DNA from: Fibrobacterota bacterium
GTDB taxonomy: Bacteria > Fibrobacterota > Fibrobacteria > UBA11236
Reading direction: 5' to 3'
DNA length: 64,000 nt
Assembly (NCBI GenBank): GCA_019509785.1
Contig: JAEKLQ010000025.1
Coordinates: 186,001-250,000, forward strand
Shown here: piece by piece, positions 21,296 to 30,140 of the stretch
Layout of the letters: every line of letters begins with the position of its first letter
How positions within the stretch are numbered: the stretch's first letter is position 1
Made by a program: the position numbers and the translations under genes
The notes under the pieces: model-generated
Told to the model about the DNA's origin: nothing
The model's database searches: none
Seen by the model: only the letters and a program-made list of their open reading frames with translations

Positions 21296-22753
21296 TTACC
21301 GGGCCGTGGCGGGACGGCCCTGGCGATCGAAGGAGATGGCAAGAACGCTTCCGGAGACATCCTTCACCGATCCGTGCATTCCCGCCGCATCGGCCGCGCC
21401 CGAGAAGACGGTTACCGCGCCATCCCGATAGAGAAGGCTGGCCTCCACCTCGCCTGCGGCGGGCCAGCGCCCATCGGCCACGGGCGCATCCGGCCGCAAG
21501 GAGAAGGAGAAGGCCTCATAGGCTTGATCGCGGTAATGCTCGGTCGTTTGCAAACGTACCAGGCTATCCGCGGCGAAATCCCCCGGCTTCGCCCCCAGGC
21601 GTACGGTGAAGGTCCGCGTGGCGAGGGAAGCGCTATTCGCCTGGGGAAACGTGCGGGTTACCATCCAGGCGGCCTCGTCCCCGGCGCGGAAGGCGGAGTC
21701 GGGCCCGGGGCCCCGGCCCTCCAGCACCAGGATGGAACCGTCCGCGCGGAGCTCGCTGCGGCGATAGCGGACCGCGTAATTGCGGGTGGAGTCCCGCGAA
21801 TAGACAACCAGCCTTTCCGCGATCGCGACCGAAGCCCCCGTATCGCCGGGGTTACGGTCGGTCTCGATCACGTCGACCAGGTTGGTGTCCTTGGAGAAAT
21901 CGATCACCGCCGAATCCCCGTCCGCGTCTAACAGGCGTACCGTCCGCAGGGTGTCGGTCCCCGAGGTCACTACCATCAGGCTGGCCAACAAGCGATTGTC
22001 CCCTCGCCGGTTGAAATCCAGATCCGGGCCGGCCGCGATGCGTTGGCTGAGGCGCGCGACTTTGCCGTCCGCCGCCTTGGCGGCAAGATCGAGATCGGCC
22101 AGGTTGGCGGCCCCCGGCTGCGGCGTCAGGAAGCCGTCGCCATCGGCATCGCGGAACGTGTATGTTTTCCAAAGACCCGTGTCGGCATAGCTAACCCTCC
22201 CCGAAACGAACAATACACCCGCGGGCGATCCGGGATGGGCCGCATCGACGGGGACGAATCTCGTGGTGTCCATTGTCCGGACGTTATCCTTCACTTGGCC
22301 GTGCACCGCTTCCACCGCGCCCTGGGCGGAGTCCACGATATGGATGGTCACGGTATCGAACGGGTTTCCGAAAGGCAAGGAGTCGATGGGAAAGGAACCA
22401 CCATAATAATTGGTTTCTCTGGATGCGGAGCGCTTGGCCATGGGCGCATTCTCCGCGGAGCCCGCGCTACGCTTGGGTTGCGGCAGGCCCGCGCCGGCCG
22501 TATCCGGCGTCGAATCGGGAACGGATGCGGTGTCGTACATGCCGGGCGCGGTGCGCGGCGCGGACTTGAATCCGTTCCAATCCGCCGAATCGTCGCGGGC
22601 GGCGGCCGCGTGCTTGCCGAGGGGTTCCACGTCGTTGGGGATATCGTCGCCGCCGGCCACGCGGGTATTCTTCTCGGCGAAGCAGCCGCACAAGAATAGG
22701 AACGCGAACAGGGCCGATAAGGCGCGCAGTGGTGAGGGGGAGATTGGTTTCAT
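21296..22753 (-). CDS. lipoprotein of unknown function
   Basis: A 485-residue protein with a signal peptide and lipobox (LCGC, about residue 24), then a low-complexity Asp/Ser/Pro-rich linker. The remainder looks like several beta-rich repeats (YTFRDADGDGFLTPQPG, VRLLDADGDSAVIDFSKDTNLV); the Asp-Gly-Asp motifs resemble calcium-binding DxDxDG loops. I do not recognise the family. Its start overlaps the stop of the TIGR02147 gene by 4 nt (ATGA), so the two form a coupled pair. Confidence 0.6.
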   Translation of the reverse strand: MKPISPSPLRALSALFAFLFLCGCFAEKNTRVAGGDDIPNDVEPLGKHAAAARDDSADWNGFKSAPRTAPGMYDTASVPDSTPDTAGAGLPQPKRSAGSAENAPMAKRSASRETNYYGGSFPIDSLPFGNPFDTVTIHIVDSAQGAVEAVHGQVKDNVRTMDTTRFVPVDAAHPGSPAGVLFVSGRVSYADTGLWKTYTFRDADGDGFLTPQPGAANLADLDLAAKAADGKVARLSQRIAAGPDLDFNRRGDNRLLASLMVVTSGTDTLRTVRLLDADGDSAVIDFSKDTNLVDVIETDRNPGDTGASVAIAERLVVYSRDSTRNYAVRYRRSELRADGSILVLEGRGPGPDSAFRAGDEAAWMVTRTFPQANSASLATRTFTVRLGAKPGDFAADSLVRLQTTEHYRDQAYEAFSFSLRPDAPVADGRWPAAGEVEASLLYRDGAVTVFSGAADAAGMHGSVKDVSGSVLAISFDRQGRPATAR

Positions 22754-23568
22754 GGCTTAATCCTCGACTTGGGCACGTAGGCCAGGCTCAGTTGCATGAT
22801 CCGCTGGGGGGCGCGGTCCGCCTCCACCTTGCGGAACACGTCCGCGCGGAATTTCTCCACCATCTCGTTGATCTCACGGGCCAGCGCATCGCTGATGTTG
22901 AGGATCATGGTGGAAACGTGGCGCCTTTCCTTGGGCAGGCGATGCAGGGCCTCCTTGGCCTGGGCCAGCCATTCGCCGTTCAGCTGCCGGCCCAATCCCG
23001 GCATCAGCCCCCCGGGCTCCACCACCGATGAGGTGGTCTGATAGCGGCCGTCGGGGCCTTGCTCCACCAAGCCCCATTCGCAAAGATCGCGCACCAGTTT
23101 CTTCACCAAGGCGACCGGCACGGGCGGATCCAGGAAGGCGGCTAGGGCATCGTAGTCCCCGCGGAAGTCGAGCACCTCGATGGCGCCGCGCACCAGCAGA
23201 TAGCGGAAATCCTGGTAATACTTGCTGAGTGCGGGATTGAGCCGGGTAAAGCGGCTGCGGTTGCGGCGCGTCGTGATCTGCTTATAGAAGAGATCCTTCT
23301 TCTCCGGCGTCTTGGCCTGCCCGAAGGCGGCCAGCAGCTTTAGGAATTCGATTTCATGGGGCTTGAGTTGGAACGCCTTTCCCATTCTCTCGGCGGCGTT
23401 GCCGCTTAAGGGTTTGAATCCCTTGATGACGTCGTTCAGGTAGCCGGGATTGGCGAAGCCGGCTTCGCGGGCGAATTTCCGGTAGGAATACTTCGGATCA
23501 TCCACCCGCCTCTGGTGGTAGCGGTCCTTTAGGAAGAGCCGGAAATCATCGTATTGGTAGATATCCAT
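22750..23568 (-). CDS. TIGR02147-family regulator-like protein
   Basis: A 272-residue protein matching the TIGR02147 family known mainly from Fibrobacter and relatives. Family marks are the N-terminal MDIYQYDDFRLFLKDRY, YSYRKFAREAGFANPGYL (helix-turn-helix-like) and the GFKPLSGNAAERMGKAFQL block. A DNA-binding regulatory role is inferred from the helix-turn-helix-like segment. It lies directly upstream of, and overlaps, a lipoprotein gene, a common arrangement that suggests regulation of or by an envelope protein. No strong ribosome site is visible before the ATG. Confidence 0.8.
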   Translation of the reverse strand: MDIYQYDDFRLFLKDRYHQRRVDDPKYSYRKFAREAGFANPGYLNDVIKGFKPLSGNAAERMGKAFQLKPHEIEFLKLLAAFGQAKTPEKKDLFYKQITTRRNRSRFTRLNPALSKYYQDFRYLLVRGAIEVLDFRGDYDALAAFLDPPVPVALVKKLVRDLCEWGLVEQGPDGRYQTTSSVVEPGGLMPGLGRQLNGEWLAQAKEALHRLPKERRHVSTMILNISDALAREINEMVEKFRADVFRKVEADRAPQRIMQLSLAYVPKSRIKP

Positions 23569-25865: not shown

Positions 25866-26657
25866 TCAGCTGGCCGCCATCTGCCGCAAGGCCTTGATCC
25901 GTTCCGGACCGCCGGCCGCGAACACGCCATCGCAACCCTCCGAAGCCAGGGCCATAAAGGCCGCTTCGTCGGCGGGCGCGGAAAGATGATCCCCATGCAG
26001 CAAAAGCAGGGGGCCGCTTCCGTCCTTGCCGCGCGTCGCCTCGGGATAGGCGGCCCACGTCGCGCGCGCCGCGGATAAAGGCTTGGGAGTATAGTCGGAA
26101 GCGAGCCCCAGGTGCACGATCAGCGCGTCGCAGCCGGCCCCGGCGCAAGCGGCGGCGTCCTCCGGGGCGCAGGCGAACCCCACGGTGAAGAAGCCGGCCG
26201 CATGGGCCGCGCGCAGAAAGGCGATTTCCGACGCCACGCCCAATCCGGCCGACTCCAATTCGGCGCGGAAGAAACCGTCCACCAGCCCTAAGGTCGGGAA
26301 GTTGGCGATCCCTTCCAGCCCGGCCGCCCGCCAGTCCGCGAAGGCGGGGCCAGGCAGCAGAAAAGGATCGGAACCGCAGGCGCCCATGGCCACCGGGCAG
26401 GGCGCGCACAACTCCGGAAGGCGCGGGAGGCCCAGGGCGGCAGCCTCGTTGGCATTGCCCAAAGGCGCCAGAGCGGCCAACATCCCCGTATCCCCGCCGG
26501 TTTCGGGGACGAAGCCGGGATGATAAAGGATCAGGTCGGGGGACAAGGCCAGGCACGCCGAAGCCTCGGCGGCCGAGGCGCAAGCGGCGGCGAGTAGGAG
26601 TCCGCCCCCGCGCCGTTTATCCCGCCAATATCCCACGCGGGGCGATATACGTACCAT
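25866..26657 (-). CDS. TIM-barrel protein, phosphoenolpyruvate-hydrolase-like family
   Basis: A 263-residue TIM-barrel protein of the PEP_hydrolase/TIM-barrel signal transduction family (PF09370 type). Family-like segments are LILYHPGFVPETGGDTG, ALAPLGNANEAA and GVASEIAFLRAAHAAGF, with ALIVHLGL near the end of the barrel. The same segments can be aligned with the N-terminal third of the enhancer-binding protein at 27894, so the regulator's sensor is a diverged copy. The tomato Tm-1 protein joins this domain to the UPF0261 domain encoded just upstream here. Reaction unknown. Ribosome site TGAGGT; 10 nt after the previous stop. Confidence 0.8.
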   Translation of the reverse strand: MVRISPRVGYWRDKRRGGGLLLAAACASAAEASACLALSPDLILYHPGFVPETGGDTGMLAALAPLGNANEAAALGLPRLPELCAPCPVAMGACGSDPFLLPGPAFADWRAAGLEGIANFPTLGLVDGFFRAELESAGLGVASEIAFLRAAHAAGFFTVGFACAPEDAAACAGAGCDALIVHLGLASDYTPKPLSAARATWAAYPEATRGKDGSGPLLLLHGDHLSAPADEAAFMALASEGCDGVFAAGGPERIKALRQMAAS

Positions 26658-26667
26658 ACGTGTTACC

Positions 26668-27897
26668 TCAGGGGAATCCGCCCGGCCCCAGCACCTCTTC
26701 CAGCGAGGCCAGGGCGGCGCGGGCGAAACCCGGATCGTTGATGTGGAAGGGGACCCGCCGCACGCTGCGGAGGGCCGTCGGCCGGATTTCCTTTTCCAAG
26801 GTCCGGAACAAGGCCTCGTCGGCTTCGGGGTCCCGGAACGGCTGCCCGGGGGCGTCCAGGGCCGAGATGCCGCCTTCCGGCAAAAGGATCACGCAAGGGC
26901 CCGACCCCAGGTTCAGGCGCGCCGCCATATGTCTCGCGAAAGCCACGTTCTCTTCGGCGTTGGTGCGCATGAGCGTAACCAAAGGCGTATGCGCATATAG
27001 CTTGCGATGCCGGAAGCGGGCGGGAACGCTGGCGCGCGGGCCGAAATTGGCCATGTCCAAGGCGCCCACGCTCACCACCGCGGGAACGTCATGCGCAGCG
27101 ATGGCATCGAAGCGGCCGGGAGCGGCGGGGAAGATCCCGCCCAAGAGTTCATCGGCGACTTCGGTGGTGGTGAGATCCATCAAGGCCCGGAAGGCGCCCT
27201 GCGCCGCCAATTCCTCGAGGGCGGCCCCGCCGGTGCCCACCGCATGGAAGGCCACGCCCTCCCAACCTTTGGCTTCCAAGGCGGTCCGGATCTGATCGAC
27301 GCAAGCCGTGGTGACGCCGAACATGGTTAGCCCCACCGCGGGAGCCACCGGAACGGCCACCGCGGCCCCGCGGGCGAGTCCGGCGGCGGCGAAGGCGGCG
27401 TTCCGCAAGGCCGGCCGGGTGAGGAAATTCAGGCCCGCGATGTCCGCCACCGGGAAGAGCATGCACAGATCGGATGTGTCCACGTAGGCGCGGATATCGC
27501 CGCTGGCCAAGGTCGAGACCATCACCTTGGGAACGCCGCGCGGCAAGGCGCGCAGGGCCGGGGCGATGAGAGCGGTGCCTTCGCTGCCGCCCAGGCCTAC
27601 CGCGCCCTGCAACCTTCCTGCGGACCACTCCGCGGCCAGGTAGTGCGAAAGCGCCTCGCCCATGGCGCGCATGACCGGTTCGCGATCGCGCTCGGAGAAG
27701 ACCGGCACGCACCCCTCGGGATGATGCCGGGCCACCTGCTCCCGGCTCACGTCGGGGACGATGCGGGGCGGGCCCTTCAGGCTTACGTCCACCAGTACGG
27801 CTTCGGCGCCCGCTTCCTCGAGCGCCCGTCCCAGGTAAGCCAATTCCAGACCCTTGCTGTCGAGGGTGGCGATGGCATAAACGCGCGGCGCGTTCAC
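26668..27897 (-). CDS. Tm-1-like ATP-binding (UPF0261) protein
   Basis: A 409-residue protein of the Tm-1-like/UPF0261 family. The N-terminus VYAIATLDSKGLELAYL and segments such as GLGGSEGTALIAPALRALP and GVPKVMVSTLASGD are typical. In tomato the homologous domain of Tm-1 binds ATP and blocks tobamovirus replication; the bacterial role is unknown. The start is GTG at 27897 with GGAGG upstream, overlapping the regulator's stop by 4 nt (GTGA). It is the second gene of the operon, followed by the TIM-barrel gene; the two correspond to the two halves of plant Tm-1. Confidence 0.85.
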   Translation of the reverse strand: MNAPRVYAIATLDSKGLELAYLGRALEEAGAEAVLVDVSLKGPPRIVPDVSREQVARHHPEGCVPVFSERDREPVMRAMGEALSHYLAAEWSAGRLQGAVGLGGSEGTALIAPALRALPRGVPKVMVSTLASGDIRAYVDTSDLCMLFPVADIAGLNFLTRPALRNAAFAAAGLARGAAVAVPVAPAVGLTMFGVTTACVDQIRTALEAKGWEGVAFHAVGTGGAALEELAAQGAFRALMDLTTTEVADELLGGIFPAAPGRFDAIAAHDVPAVVSVGALDMANFGPRASVPARFRHRKLYAHTPLVTLMRTNAEENVAFARHMAARLNLGSGPCVILLPEGGISALDAPGQPFRDPEADEALFRTLEKEIRPTALRSVRRVPFHINDPGFARAALASLEEVLGPGGFP

Positions 27898-29705
27898 CCC
27901 GCCTCCAGCCAGGCGTAGAAGGTCTTACGCGTCACCCCCAAGGCCGCGGCGGCCCGGCTCTTGTTGCCGGCATGGGCGGTCAGGGCGCGGCGCGCGGCTT
28001 CGCGCCGGTCCTTGGGCCCTTCTCCCTGGGGAGCGGCCCCGAAAAGGGCGGCAGGCGCCATCGGCGCCGGTCCGGCAATGGGAAAAGATCCCTTATTACC
28101 GGCGGGTTCCGCTTCGAAATCCTTACCCTCCAGAAGAATGCCGTCTTCCAGCAAGGCGGCTTGGGTGAGGACGTGGTGGAGTTCGCGCACGTTCCCGGGC
28201 CAGGCGTGCCTGCGGAGGCGGGCCAGGAAGCGTGGGGTAACTCCGGAGATACGTCGGCCGAGCAGGGTTTGCAGCCGCGCGAGCGCGTCCTCGATCAGGA
28301 GAGGCAAATCCTCCAGGCGATCGCGCAGGGGGGGCACCCGCACCGTCACGTTATTGAGGCGATGGTACAGATCGGCCCGGAAGCGCCCCTGTTCCACCAA
28401 CCGACCCAGGGGCTGGTTGGACGCGGCCACCACGCGCACGTCCACGGGAATCGGCCGCTCGCCGCCCACGCGCGCGATTTCGCGCTGTTGCAGGGCGCGC
28501 AGCAAGGCCACTTGTCCGTGAGGCGAAAGGTCGGCGACCTCGTCTAGGAAAAGCGTCCCATGCTGCGCCAGTTCGAACTTGCCCAGGCGACGGCGATCGG
28601 CGCCGGTGAAGGATCCTTTTTCATGACCGAACAGCTCGCTCTCCAGGAGCTTGTCAGGTATGGCGCCGCAATTGACGGTGACGAAGGGATGGGTGGCGCG
28701 CCGATTATGCTGATGCAACTGGATAGCCACCAGCTCCTTGCCCGCGCCCGATTCCCCCTCGATATAGGCGCTGACGTCGAAAGGGGCCACCCGTTGGATG
28801 ATTTGGAACAGCTTCTGCATGGCGGGGCTGCGCCCCAGGATGGGACCCAGGCCCGGGAGCGAGCGCTTGCCCTCGGGGAAACCGGCGGAAGCCCCCCGCG
28901 ACTGGCTGATGACGCCCTTGAAGCGCCGCACCGTGGCATCGAGGATTCCCCCTACCGGGAGCCGCTCGAAAACCGATCCGCCGGCGAAACCGTCGAGCGG
29001 GCAGTACCGCAGCAATTCTTCGAGGTCATCGGGCTCGGTGACCGCGCCGCCGAAAACCAGGCAGCGGGGACGGCGCCCTCCCTTGCGGGCCGCGTCGAGC
29101 ATGGCGTTTAGGGCGGCCTGGTTCAGTTGCAGCATGTCCCGCGTGGCATGCACGTCCTCGAACTGCCGGGTAAGCCCTAAATGCAGGATCAAGGTGCTGA
29201 TGCCGGCCTCGGCGAATACACGCGCTTCTTCCGGATTGAAGACGAAGCCGAAGGCGGCGAAGCCTTCGGATTGGGCCGCCCGCAAGAGCGCTATCTCGGC
29301 GGCCACTCCCCGGCCGGCTTTTTCCCAGGCGGCGCGGAGGCACCCATCCAGAAAACCCGCGGCCGGCCAATTGCAAATGCCATACACGCCCAAAGCGCGA
29401 TAGGCCTCCCACAAGGCGGCCGGCGGATACTCCGCATCGCCGGGAGCGGCGGCGGCCACCACCGGGATATGGTTGGCCGCGGCGGGAAGGATGTGCTCCC
29501 GCAGGAGTTTCAAAGTCTGGGAATTGGAATTCCCGAAGGGCAGAAATGAAGGCAAAGATCCATGGCCTAGATTGCGATACACCCCCGCGTTCAAGGCCAG
29601 GAGGAAATCCGCCCCGGCTTCGATCGCGCTGCGCGCGACCTGCCCGGAACCGGCCGCCACCGCCAGAATAGGCTTCCCGGAGCCCTGTGTATATTCCGTA
29701 TCCAT
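27894..29705 (-). CDS. sigma-54 enhancer-binding protein with TIM-barrel sensor domain
   Basis: A 603-residue regulator in three parts. Residues 8-265 form a PEP_hydrolase-type TIM barrel (GKPILAVAAGSGQVARSAIEAG, HGSLPSFLPFGNSN, GVAAEIALLRAAQ). Residues 285-525 form a sigma-54-interacting AAA+ domain: Walker A GESGAGKE (317-324), Walker B LFLDEVADL (385-393), and the sigma-54 loop reads GSFTGA (364-369) rather than GAFTGA. A Fis-type helix-turn-helix closes the protein (NKSRAAAALGVTRKTFYAWL). It should activate sigma-54 promoters in response to a small molecule bound by the barrel. It heads a four-gene operon with its own sigma-54 promoter at 30022. No clear ribosome site precedes its ATG. 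Confidence 0.92.
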   Translation of the reverse strand: MDTEYTQGSGKPILAVAAGSGQVARSAIEAGADFLLALNAGVYRNLGHGSLPSFLPFGNSNSQTLKLLREHILPAAANHIPVVAAAAPGDAEYPPAALWEAYRALGVYGICNWPAAGFLDGCLRAAWEKAGRGVAAEIALLRAAQSEGFAAFGFVFNPEEARVFAEAGISTLILHLGLTRQFEDVHATRDMLQLNQAALNAMLDAARKGGRRPRCLVFGGAVTEPDDLEELLRYCPLDGFAGGSVFERLPVGGILDATVRRFKGVISQSRGASAGFPEGKRSLPGLGPILGRSPAMQKLFQIIQRVAPFDVSAYIEGESGAGKELVAIQLHQHNRRATHPFVTVNCGAIPDKLLESELFGHEKGSFTGADRRRLGKFELAQHGTLFLDEVADLSPHGQVALLRALQQREIARVGGERPIPVDVRVVAASNQPLGRLVEQGRFRADLYHRLNNVTVRVPPLRDRLEDLPLLIEDALARLQTLLGRRISGVTPRFLARLRRHAWPGNVRELHHVLTQAALLEDGILLEGKDFEAEPAGNKGSFPIAGPAPMAPAALFGAAPQGEGPKDRREAARRALTAHAGNKSRAAAALGVTRKTFYAWLEAG

Positions 29706-29806
29706 GTTTGGATACTAGAATAAAACCGACCTGTCTTTTTCGCATGGCAAACTTCGAATGGCGGAGGCATGGGGAAAGGGAAGAAACGGGAGAAGCGGGA
29801 GCCGCG

Positions 29807-29871
29807 AATCGACACGGGCCGGTTCGTCAAGGGTGGGGCTTAAGCGAACCAGTTTATGGCCCGTGCCGATT
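29807..29871 (-). promoter_or_regulatory. structured leader element, copy 1 (promoter-distal)
   Basis: On the minus strand an outer stem ATCGGCACGGGCC/GGCCCGTGTCGAT (13 bp, one G-U pair) encloses an inner 6-bp stem GGTTCG/CGAACC and an apical 3-bp stem AAG/CTT closing the loop CCCCACC. The G-U pair would be an A-C mismatch on the plus strand, so the RNA is probably read from the minus strand, in the leader of the enhancer-binding-protein gene. It is a diverged tandem copy of the element at 29905-29968; differences between the copies keep pairing. Confidence 0.65.
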
Positions 29872-29904
29872 TTCTCGGTCGCGGCGGATCTAGTTGGATC
29901 AAGG

Positions 29905-29968
29905 ATCGGCACGGGCTCAGTTCGTCGAGGGTGGGGCTCAAGCGAACTTGTTACTAACCCGTGCCGAT
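29905..29968 (-). promoter_or_regulatory. structured leader element, copy 2 (promoter-proximal)
   Basis: On the minus strand an outer perfect 11-bp stem ATCGGCACGGG/CCCGTGCCGAT encloses an inner stem AGTTCG/CGAACT and an apical stem GAG/CTC closing the identical loop CCCCACC. Relative to copy 1, two base pairs changed on both sides (G-C to A-U, A-U to G-C). It begins about 42 nt after the predicted sigma-54 transcription start. No U-run follows, so it is not a simple terminator. It does not match any riboswitch class I recognise. Confidence 0.65.
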
Positions 29969-30021: not shown

Positions 30022-30037
30022 TGCAAGGGACGTGCCA
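30022..30037 (-). promoter_or_regulatory. sigma-54 promoter of the enhancer-binding-protein operon
   Basis: TGGCACGTCCCTTGCA on the minus strand matches the sigma-54 consensus (TGGCAC, 5 nt, TTGCA) at every fixed position, with GG and GC separated by exactly 10 nt. Transcription would start near 30010, giving a leader of about 305 nt before the ATG at 29705. The operon encodes a sigma-54 activator, so autoregulation is likely. Confidence 0.85.
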
Positions 30038-30119: not shown

Positions 30120-30140
30120 ACTGTTTACTCTATAAACAGT
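30120..30140. promoter_or_regulatory. inverted repeat, candidate enhancer site
   Basis: ACTGTTTA and TAAACAGT form a perfect 8-bp inverted repeat with a 5-bp spacer, centred about 120 bp upstream of the predicted sigma-54 start site, where enhancer-binding proteins usually bind. A further TGTTTAC half site lies at 30107-30113. It could alternatively be a terminator for the kinase gene, but it is AT-rich and lacks a T-run. Confidence 0.5.

Follow-up and report, generated by a model that had tools for sequence, protein, structure and literature searches.

The regulator operon and its promoter

The window analysed here is a 64-kb stretch of a Fibrobacterota genome of 5.4 Mb (G000), which was compared with its congeners G001–G005. 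An operon of three genes lies on the minus strand of the window. The first gene (27894..29705, start codon at 29705) encodes a regulator of 603 aa with a PEP_hydrolase TIM barrel (PF09370), a sigma-54 activation domain (PF00158) and a Fis-type HTH. The second (26668..27897) encodes a UPF0261 (Tm-1-like) protein and the third (25866..26657) a stand-alone PF09370 TIM-barrel protein. In plants, Tm-1 combines UPF0261 and this TIM barrel in one protein, and in bacteria the two co-occur and co-evolve (PMC5028733). The family libraries searched give no functional assignment for the Tm-1-related UPF0261/TIM-barrel proteins of bacteria.

The operon of regulator, UPF0261 protein and second PF09370 TIM barrel is present in all four species that carry the hairpin element described below (G000, G001, G003 and G005), and full-length regulator orthologues (70–78% identity in local alignment) are found in these same four genomes. 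The orthologue is absent from congeners G002 and G004, where the best matches are other sigma-54 regulators, and a search of plasmids for the regulator at E<=1e-60 found none. PF09370 occurs in six genomes of the phylum, i.e. these four and the more distant G010 (a short piece) and G165 (a 279-aa open frame). Elsewhere in the window, a TIGR02147 protein (Fsuc_second, a Fibrobacter paralogue family; 22750-23568, minus) is 87.5% identical to G005, and its neighbours are 45–78% identical.

A sigma-54 promoter box, TGGCACGTCCCTTGCA, is located at 30022..30037 (minus) and has zero mismatches to TGGCACGN4TTGCW. In G005, G003 and G001 a sigma-54-like box occupies the corresponding position, with 1, 2 and 3 mismatches respectively (the last a weak box), and the distance from box start to element is 53–73 nt in all four genomes. 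A sequence-only reading of the window had placed the element about 42 nt after the predicted start site, which agrees with this box. Compact dyads lie 88–102 nt upstream of the box in G000 and G005. The one in G000 is CTGTTTA-N5-TAAACAG (CTGTTTATAGAGTAAACAG; 30120..30140, minus), about 100 nt upstream of the -24 box, and at about the same distance G005 has another dyad, TGTATAC-CT-GTATACA (TGTATACCTGTATACA); no upstream dyad was found in G001 and G003. Each dyad is a plausible enhancer-binding (activator) site, and the difference between G000 and G005 indicates that this putative site has diverged.

Two copies of a hairpin element in the leader

Sequence, folding and covariance model define two hairpins between promoter and start codon: the promoter-proximal copy A (29905..29968, minus, 64 nt) and the start-codon-proximal copy B (29808..29870, minus, 63 nt), which is 82% identical to copy A and separated from it by 34 nt. 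The sequence-only reading had described two copies of 64–65 nt, 33 nt apart, with a shared outer stem, a shared inner stem and an identical loop, and apart from these small differences in length its description is borne out. In both copies, a GC-rich outer stem of 12–13 bp (AUCGGCACGGG) is followed by a 5' asymmetric bulge of about 10 nt, facing 0 or 1–2 nt on the opposite strand. Above it come the inner stem GUUCG/CGAAC, one bulged C, and an apical stem (in copy A UUGAG/CUCGA, 5 bp) that is closed by the loop CCCCACC, identical in A and B.

As single strands, copies A and B fold at -33.9 and -37.2 kcal/mol, with z-scores of -5.5 and -6.0, and none of 200 shuffles was equally good. The plus strand of copy B folds worse (z -3.8). 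Two inner base pairs had been said to change on both sides between the copies, and both are confirmed: the pair below GUUCG (G-C/A-U) and a pair of the apical stem (A-U/G-C). A third candidate covarying pair (U-A in copy A, C-G in copy B) appears at the edge of the bulge, given suitable gap placement, and a second one-sided wobble (C-G/U-G) also separates the copies.

The distance from promoter to copy A in G000 is 71 nt, compared with 69 nt to the single copy in G005, and copy B lies 103 nt from the ATG, compared with 104 nt in G005. These matching spacings fit one tandem duplication of the G005 layout, and a single ancestral unit appears to have been duplicated in G000. The earlier description of the element as tandem thus holds for G000, but the tandem arrangement is not essential, with three relatives carrying a single copy.

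Distribution across genomes

A covariance model of the kind proposed earlier was built from copies A and B and run on the own genome, then on 101 genomes (the own genome and relatives). Only copies A and B were matched in the 5.4 Mb of G000, so the scattering over the whole genome that would have marked a repeat family did not occur, and one copy each was found in congeners G001, G003 and G005. A REP-like or genome-wide repeat is therefore rejected, with two copies in one leader in G000 and one in each of three relatives. A five-sequence model, searched over 168 genomes of the phylum, gave nothing further above chance (next best E 0.44), and weak matches in G002 and G121 (E 0.4–0.5) were treated as chance. 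The four element-bearing genomes, three of which (the congeners) are metagenome-assembled, are exactly the 4 of 168 with the orthologous operon. This association (4/4 vs 0/164) is striking, but it reflects one inherited operon and is not countable as independent events.

We also scanned 85,000 GTDB species genomes for the exact pattern GTTCG...CCCCACC...CGAAC, and eight stretches were found. Three of them, which have the outer stem, are the known Fibrobacteria contigs JANYDA010000059.1 (G003), JAHFCH010000004.1 (G005) and JADGQO010000104.1 (G001). The other five (planctomycete and actinobacteria) are GC-rich matches without the outer stem and were discarded, as was one viral-contig match without the conserved outer-stem sequence. 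The element search of plasmid and phage records returned no match, and a plasmid or phage mobile element is rejected, no similar sequence being present in these records.

The proposed comparison with Rfam was made as well and no family matched. Rfam 15 (4227 families) has no match in the 64-kb window at the gathering threshold, nothing meaningful over the element at E<=10, and none in the three relatives at E<=1. A literature search by motif for CCUCCUCCC-type sRNAs found nothing.

Evidence for a minus-strand RNA

In the alignment of five copies from four genomes, 109 of 110 base-pair cells are standard-paired, and five variable base pairs support minus-strand pairing. Both sides change in three of these pairs, i.e. 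A-U/C-G/G-U at the base, A-U/G-C in the outer stem and G-C/A-U in the apical stem. As a control, three both-sided changes were reached in 9 of 500 shuffles, and sliding the partner strand nearly abolished them. Within G000, copies A and B differ at one more inner pair, which is G-C in one and A-U in the other. The structure is thus conserved with covariation across species, as expected of a leader RNA.

Five pair columns contain minus-strand G-U and none contains A-C, and one U-G is conserved in all five copies. G-U columns without A-C fit the prediction for a minus-strand RNA, which the earlier reading had drawn from a single wobble, and the asymmetry of the five columns would arise by coin flip with a chance of about 1 in 32. 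This result bears on a reading at DNA level, in which the element is an inverted-repeat operator, e.g. a site for the enhancer-binding protein, that merely resembles an RNA hairpin. The long inverted arms would suit such an operator, and so would the short distance to a sigma-54 promoter whose gene encodes a DNA-binding regulator. However, the wobble asymmetry breaks the symmetry expected of DNA and makes this reading highly improbable; the element also lies downstream of the promoter, and the compact dyads upstream in G000 and G005 are separate from it.

The element is 76–86% identical between species. The leader spacer before it (40–55%) and the tail after it (44–55%) are at or near the level of shuffled sequences. 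Among species, the 28-nt apical hairpin varies only at one apical-stem pair and by one inserted loop U, a constancy of sequence suggesting that the sequence itself is recognised, not just a stem. The bulge is variable among species in both sequence and length. A plus-strand frame of 125 aa spans the region, but the length differences in the bulge and loop are not divisible by three and argue against coding sequence.

Covariation alone would not carry the case, with few sequences aligned and most pairs invariant, and it is the combined signs that support it. Taken together, the congeners, the co-occurrence with the operon, the covariation, the wobbles and the conservation strongly support the view that the leader of this operon contains a structured RNA read from the minus strand, and the element is almost certainly an RNA structure. 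The earlier claim of a cis-regulatory RNA in the operon leader stands in its first part, the structured minus-strand leader RNA, and is weakened in its second, the cis action, by the arrangement in G003.

The displaced element in G003

In three of the four genomes, the regulator is the next gene after the element and shares its strand. In G003 (L028:2780-5531), promoter and element are on the same strand too but 2.7 kb before the regulator, with two opposite-strand genes between, an M64-type peptidase (PF09471) and a GFO/IDH/MocA oxidoreductase. The element thus lies upstream of one gene family and on its strand in all four genomes, the 2.7-kb case included, as a leader RNA should. Homologues of the oxidoreductase in the other five genomes are only 53–58% identical, and that of G000 is about 29 kb away, and the two genes therefore appear to have been inserted into the leader. 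A sigma-54-like box with 2 mismatches, CGGCACGGCTCTCGCT, occurs at L028:5406 (minus), about 90 nt before the oxidoreductase start, and the inserted genes may therefore share the regulon. The displaced element could be a stranded relic, or work on a long antisense transcript, or be an RNA of its own. The 2.7-kb separation is the main reason why cis action of the element on the regulator mRNA, which is likely from its usual position, is held at moderate confidence.

Because of G003, the strongest rival explanation is a sigma-54-dependent small RNA, either with its own transcription unit or cut from the leader, whose C-rich loop would pair with G-rich (GGUGGGG-like) mRNA sites. The promoter-element pair persists in G003 with a compensated A-U to G-C change despite two antisense genes before the regulator, and the loop is unpaired, C-rich and invariant save for one inserted U. 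However, the element was never found without the operon among 168 genomes of the phylum, its place in the other three genomes is that of a leader, and no terminator follows it in G000 or G003. In addition, the operon has no conserved GGTGGGG partner, with one site inside the UPF0261 gene of G000 that was not seen in the relatives. On balance we regard a small RNA as unlikely.

The CcsR1-4 sRNAs of Rhodobacter also have hairpins with C-rich loops, which are related to one another. According to PMC7866481, these are several small RNAs from one transcript, cut from the co-transcript by RNase E, whereas the element is promoter-proximal in a leader and one copy is usual.

Possible function of the leader RNA

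The RNA structure, its strand, its conservation, its position behind the promoter and its association with the operon are all established by computation. The likeliest reading, which we favour with some reserve, is that a trans-acting factor binds the CCCCACC hairpin of a leader RNA. Sigma-54 RNA polymerase would transcribe the element from the minus strand in a promoter-proximal position, and the element would normally form the 5' leader of the operon that encodes the TIM-barrel enhancer-binding protein, the UPF0261 protein and the second TIM-barrel protein. A rigid 12-bp stem would present the short inner hairpin with its bulged C and CCCCACC loop, and a factor, most likely a protein, would probably recognise this near-unchanged hairpin directly. 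By acting on elongation, stability or translation, it could tune expression of the operon, which the regulator may itself activate.

Comparative genomics has given candidate cis-regulatory leader RNA motifs before, e.g. 104 candidate structured RNAs (PMC2864571). The element shares with these the conserved sequence and structure, the covariation and a leader position tied to one type of operon, and differs in being found in one genus and one operon only, with no Rfam match. We regard it as a structured leader RNA, a general kind that is already known, in this case new, lineage-specific and outside Rfam; the finding goes beyond a chance likeness of two copies.

Besides the case of G003 and the small sample of four genomes, two findings count against the leader model: no intrinsic terminator (GC hairpin and U-run) was found after the element in G000 or G003, in line with the earlier remark that no T-run follows, and the predicted folds of G005 and G003 contain no long competing pairing. 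The same findings bear on a metabolite-sensing riboswitch that would read the ligand of the TIM barrel, an idea put forward in the sequence-only reading. The leader position before a sensor-regulator operon, the asymmetric bulge with a conserved hairpin, and the tandem duplication in one species would suit such a switch; some riboswitches occur in tandem. However, the stem is very stable and has no long alternative partner in single-copy G005 and G003, the bulge varies in sequence and length, no Rfam riboswitch matches, and no expression platform (a terminator or masked ribosome site) was found. Without a platform, we consider a riboswitch improbable. The guanidine-II (mini-ykkC) riboswitch, for example, has two similar tandem hairpins in a leader, with an ACGR tetraloop. 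G000 resembles it in having two such hairpins, but the loop of the element is not ACGR, one copy suffices in three species and Rfam gives no match.

Another explanation is that the element, like put or the LoaP hairpin, is loaded on RNA polymerase near the promoter for processive antitermination or protection of the transcript. The promoter-proximal position is fixed in all four genomes whatever the distance to the next sense gene, and a long untranslated leader follows the element. However, the leader has no terminator to read through, and no LoaP-like NusG paralogue was found in the genus, where NusG matches number at most one per genome, a weak test given that NusG was undetected in 4 of 6 assemblies. 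As PMC12691694 describes it, the LoaP system of the dfn leader likewise has a small 5'-leader hairpin and a trans factor, the latter only presumed for our element; its loop is of UNCG type, whereas the element has a C-rich loop of 7–8 nt on a long bulged stem. These points leave antitermination distinctly doubtful.

The element adds to an uncultured genus of Fibrobacteria a structured RNA that is well supported, unknown to Rfam and tied to a single regulatory operon. Its reach is limited to one genus and one operon, and it offers a small and precise test object, a 28-nt hairpin with a predicted promoter, as well as a handle on possible post-initiation control of a sigma-54-driven gene for an enhancer-binding protein.

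A second dyad at the start codon

The ATG of the regulator is contained in a dyad, GTATCCA-N4-TGGATAC (GTATCCAAACATGGATAC; 29698..29715, minus). Each of the four operon-bearing genomes has the pattern GTATCCANNNATGGATA exactly once, and in every case it lies at this start codon. It is absent from the two congeners without the operon, and a control with the reversed pattern gave zero. In predicted folds, the dyad as RNA has -6 to -9 kcal/mol with the AUG partly paired, and no pairing with the element was seen. No Shine-Dalgarno sequence precedes it by eye, and covariation that would tell an RNA hairpin from a DNA operator is absent at this site. The dyad may serve as the output site through which translation of the same mRNA is controlled, or as an autoregulatory operator.

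Tentatively, the element could represent a new RNA class, in which a sigma-54-transcribed hairpin with the bulged C and CCCCACC loop is read by a partner and works with the start-codon hairpin. Such an RNA would give the TIM-barrel enhancer-binding protein a second, RNA-level layer of control, and a free-standing small RNA would be possible in G003. We hold this broader proposal to be a possibility on the weaker side. In G003, ATGGATAGCG, a 10-mer that matches the start of the regulator exactly, appears again about 70 nt past the element.
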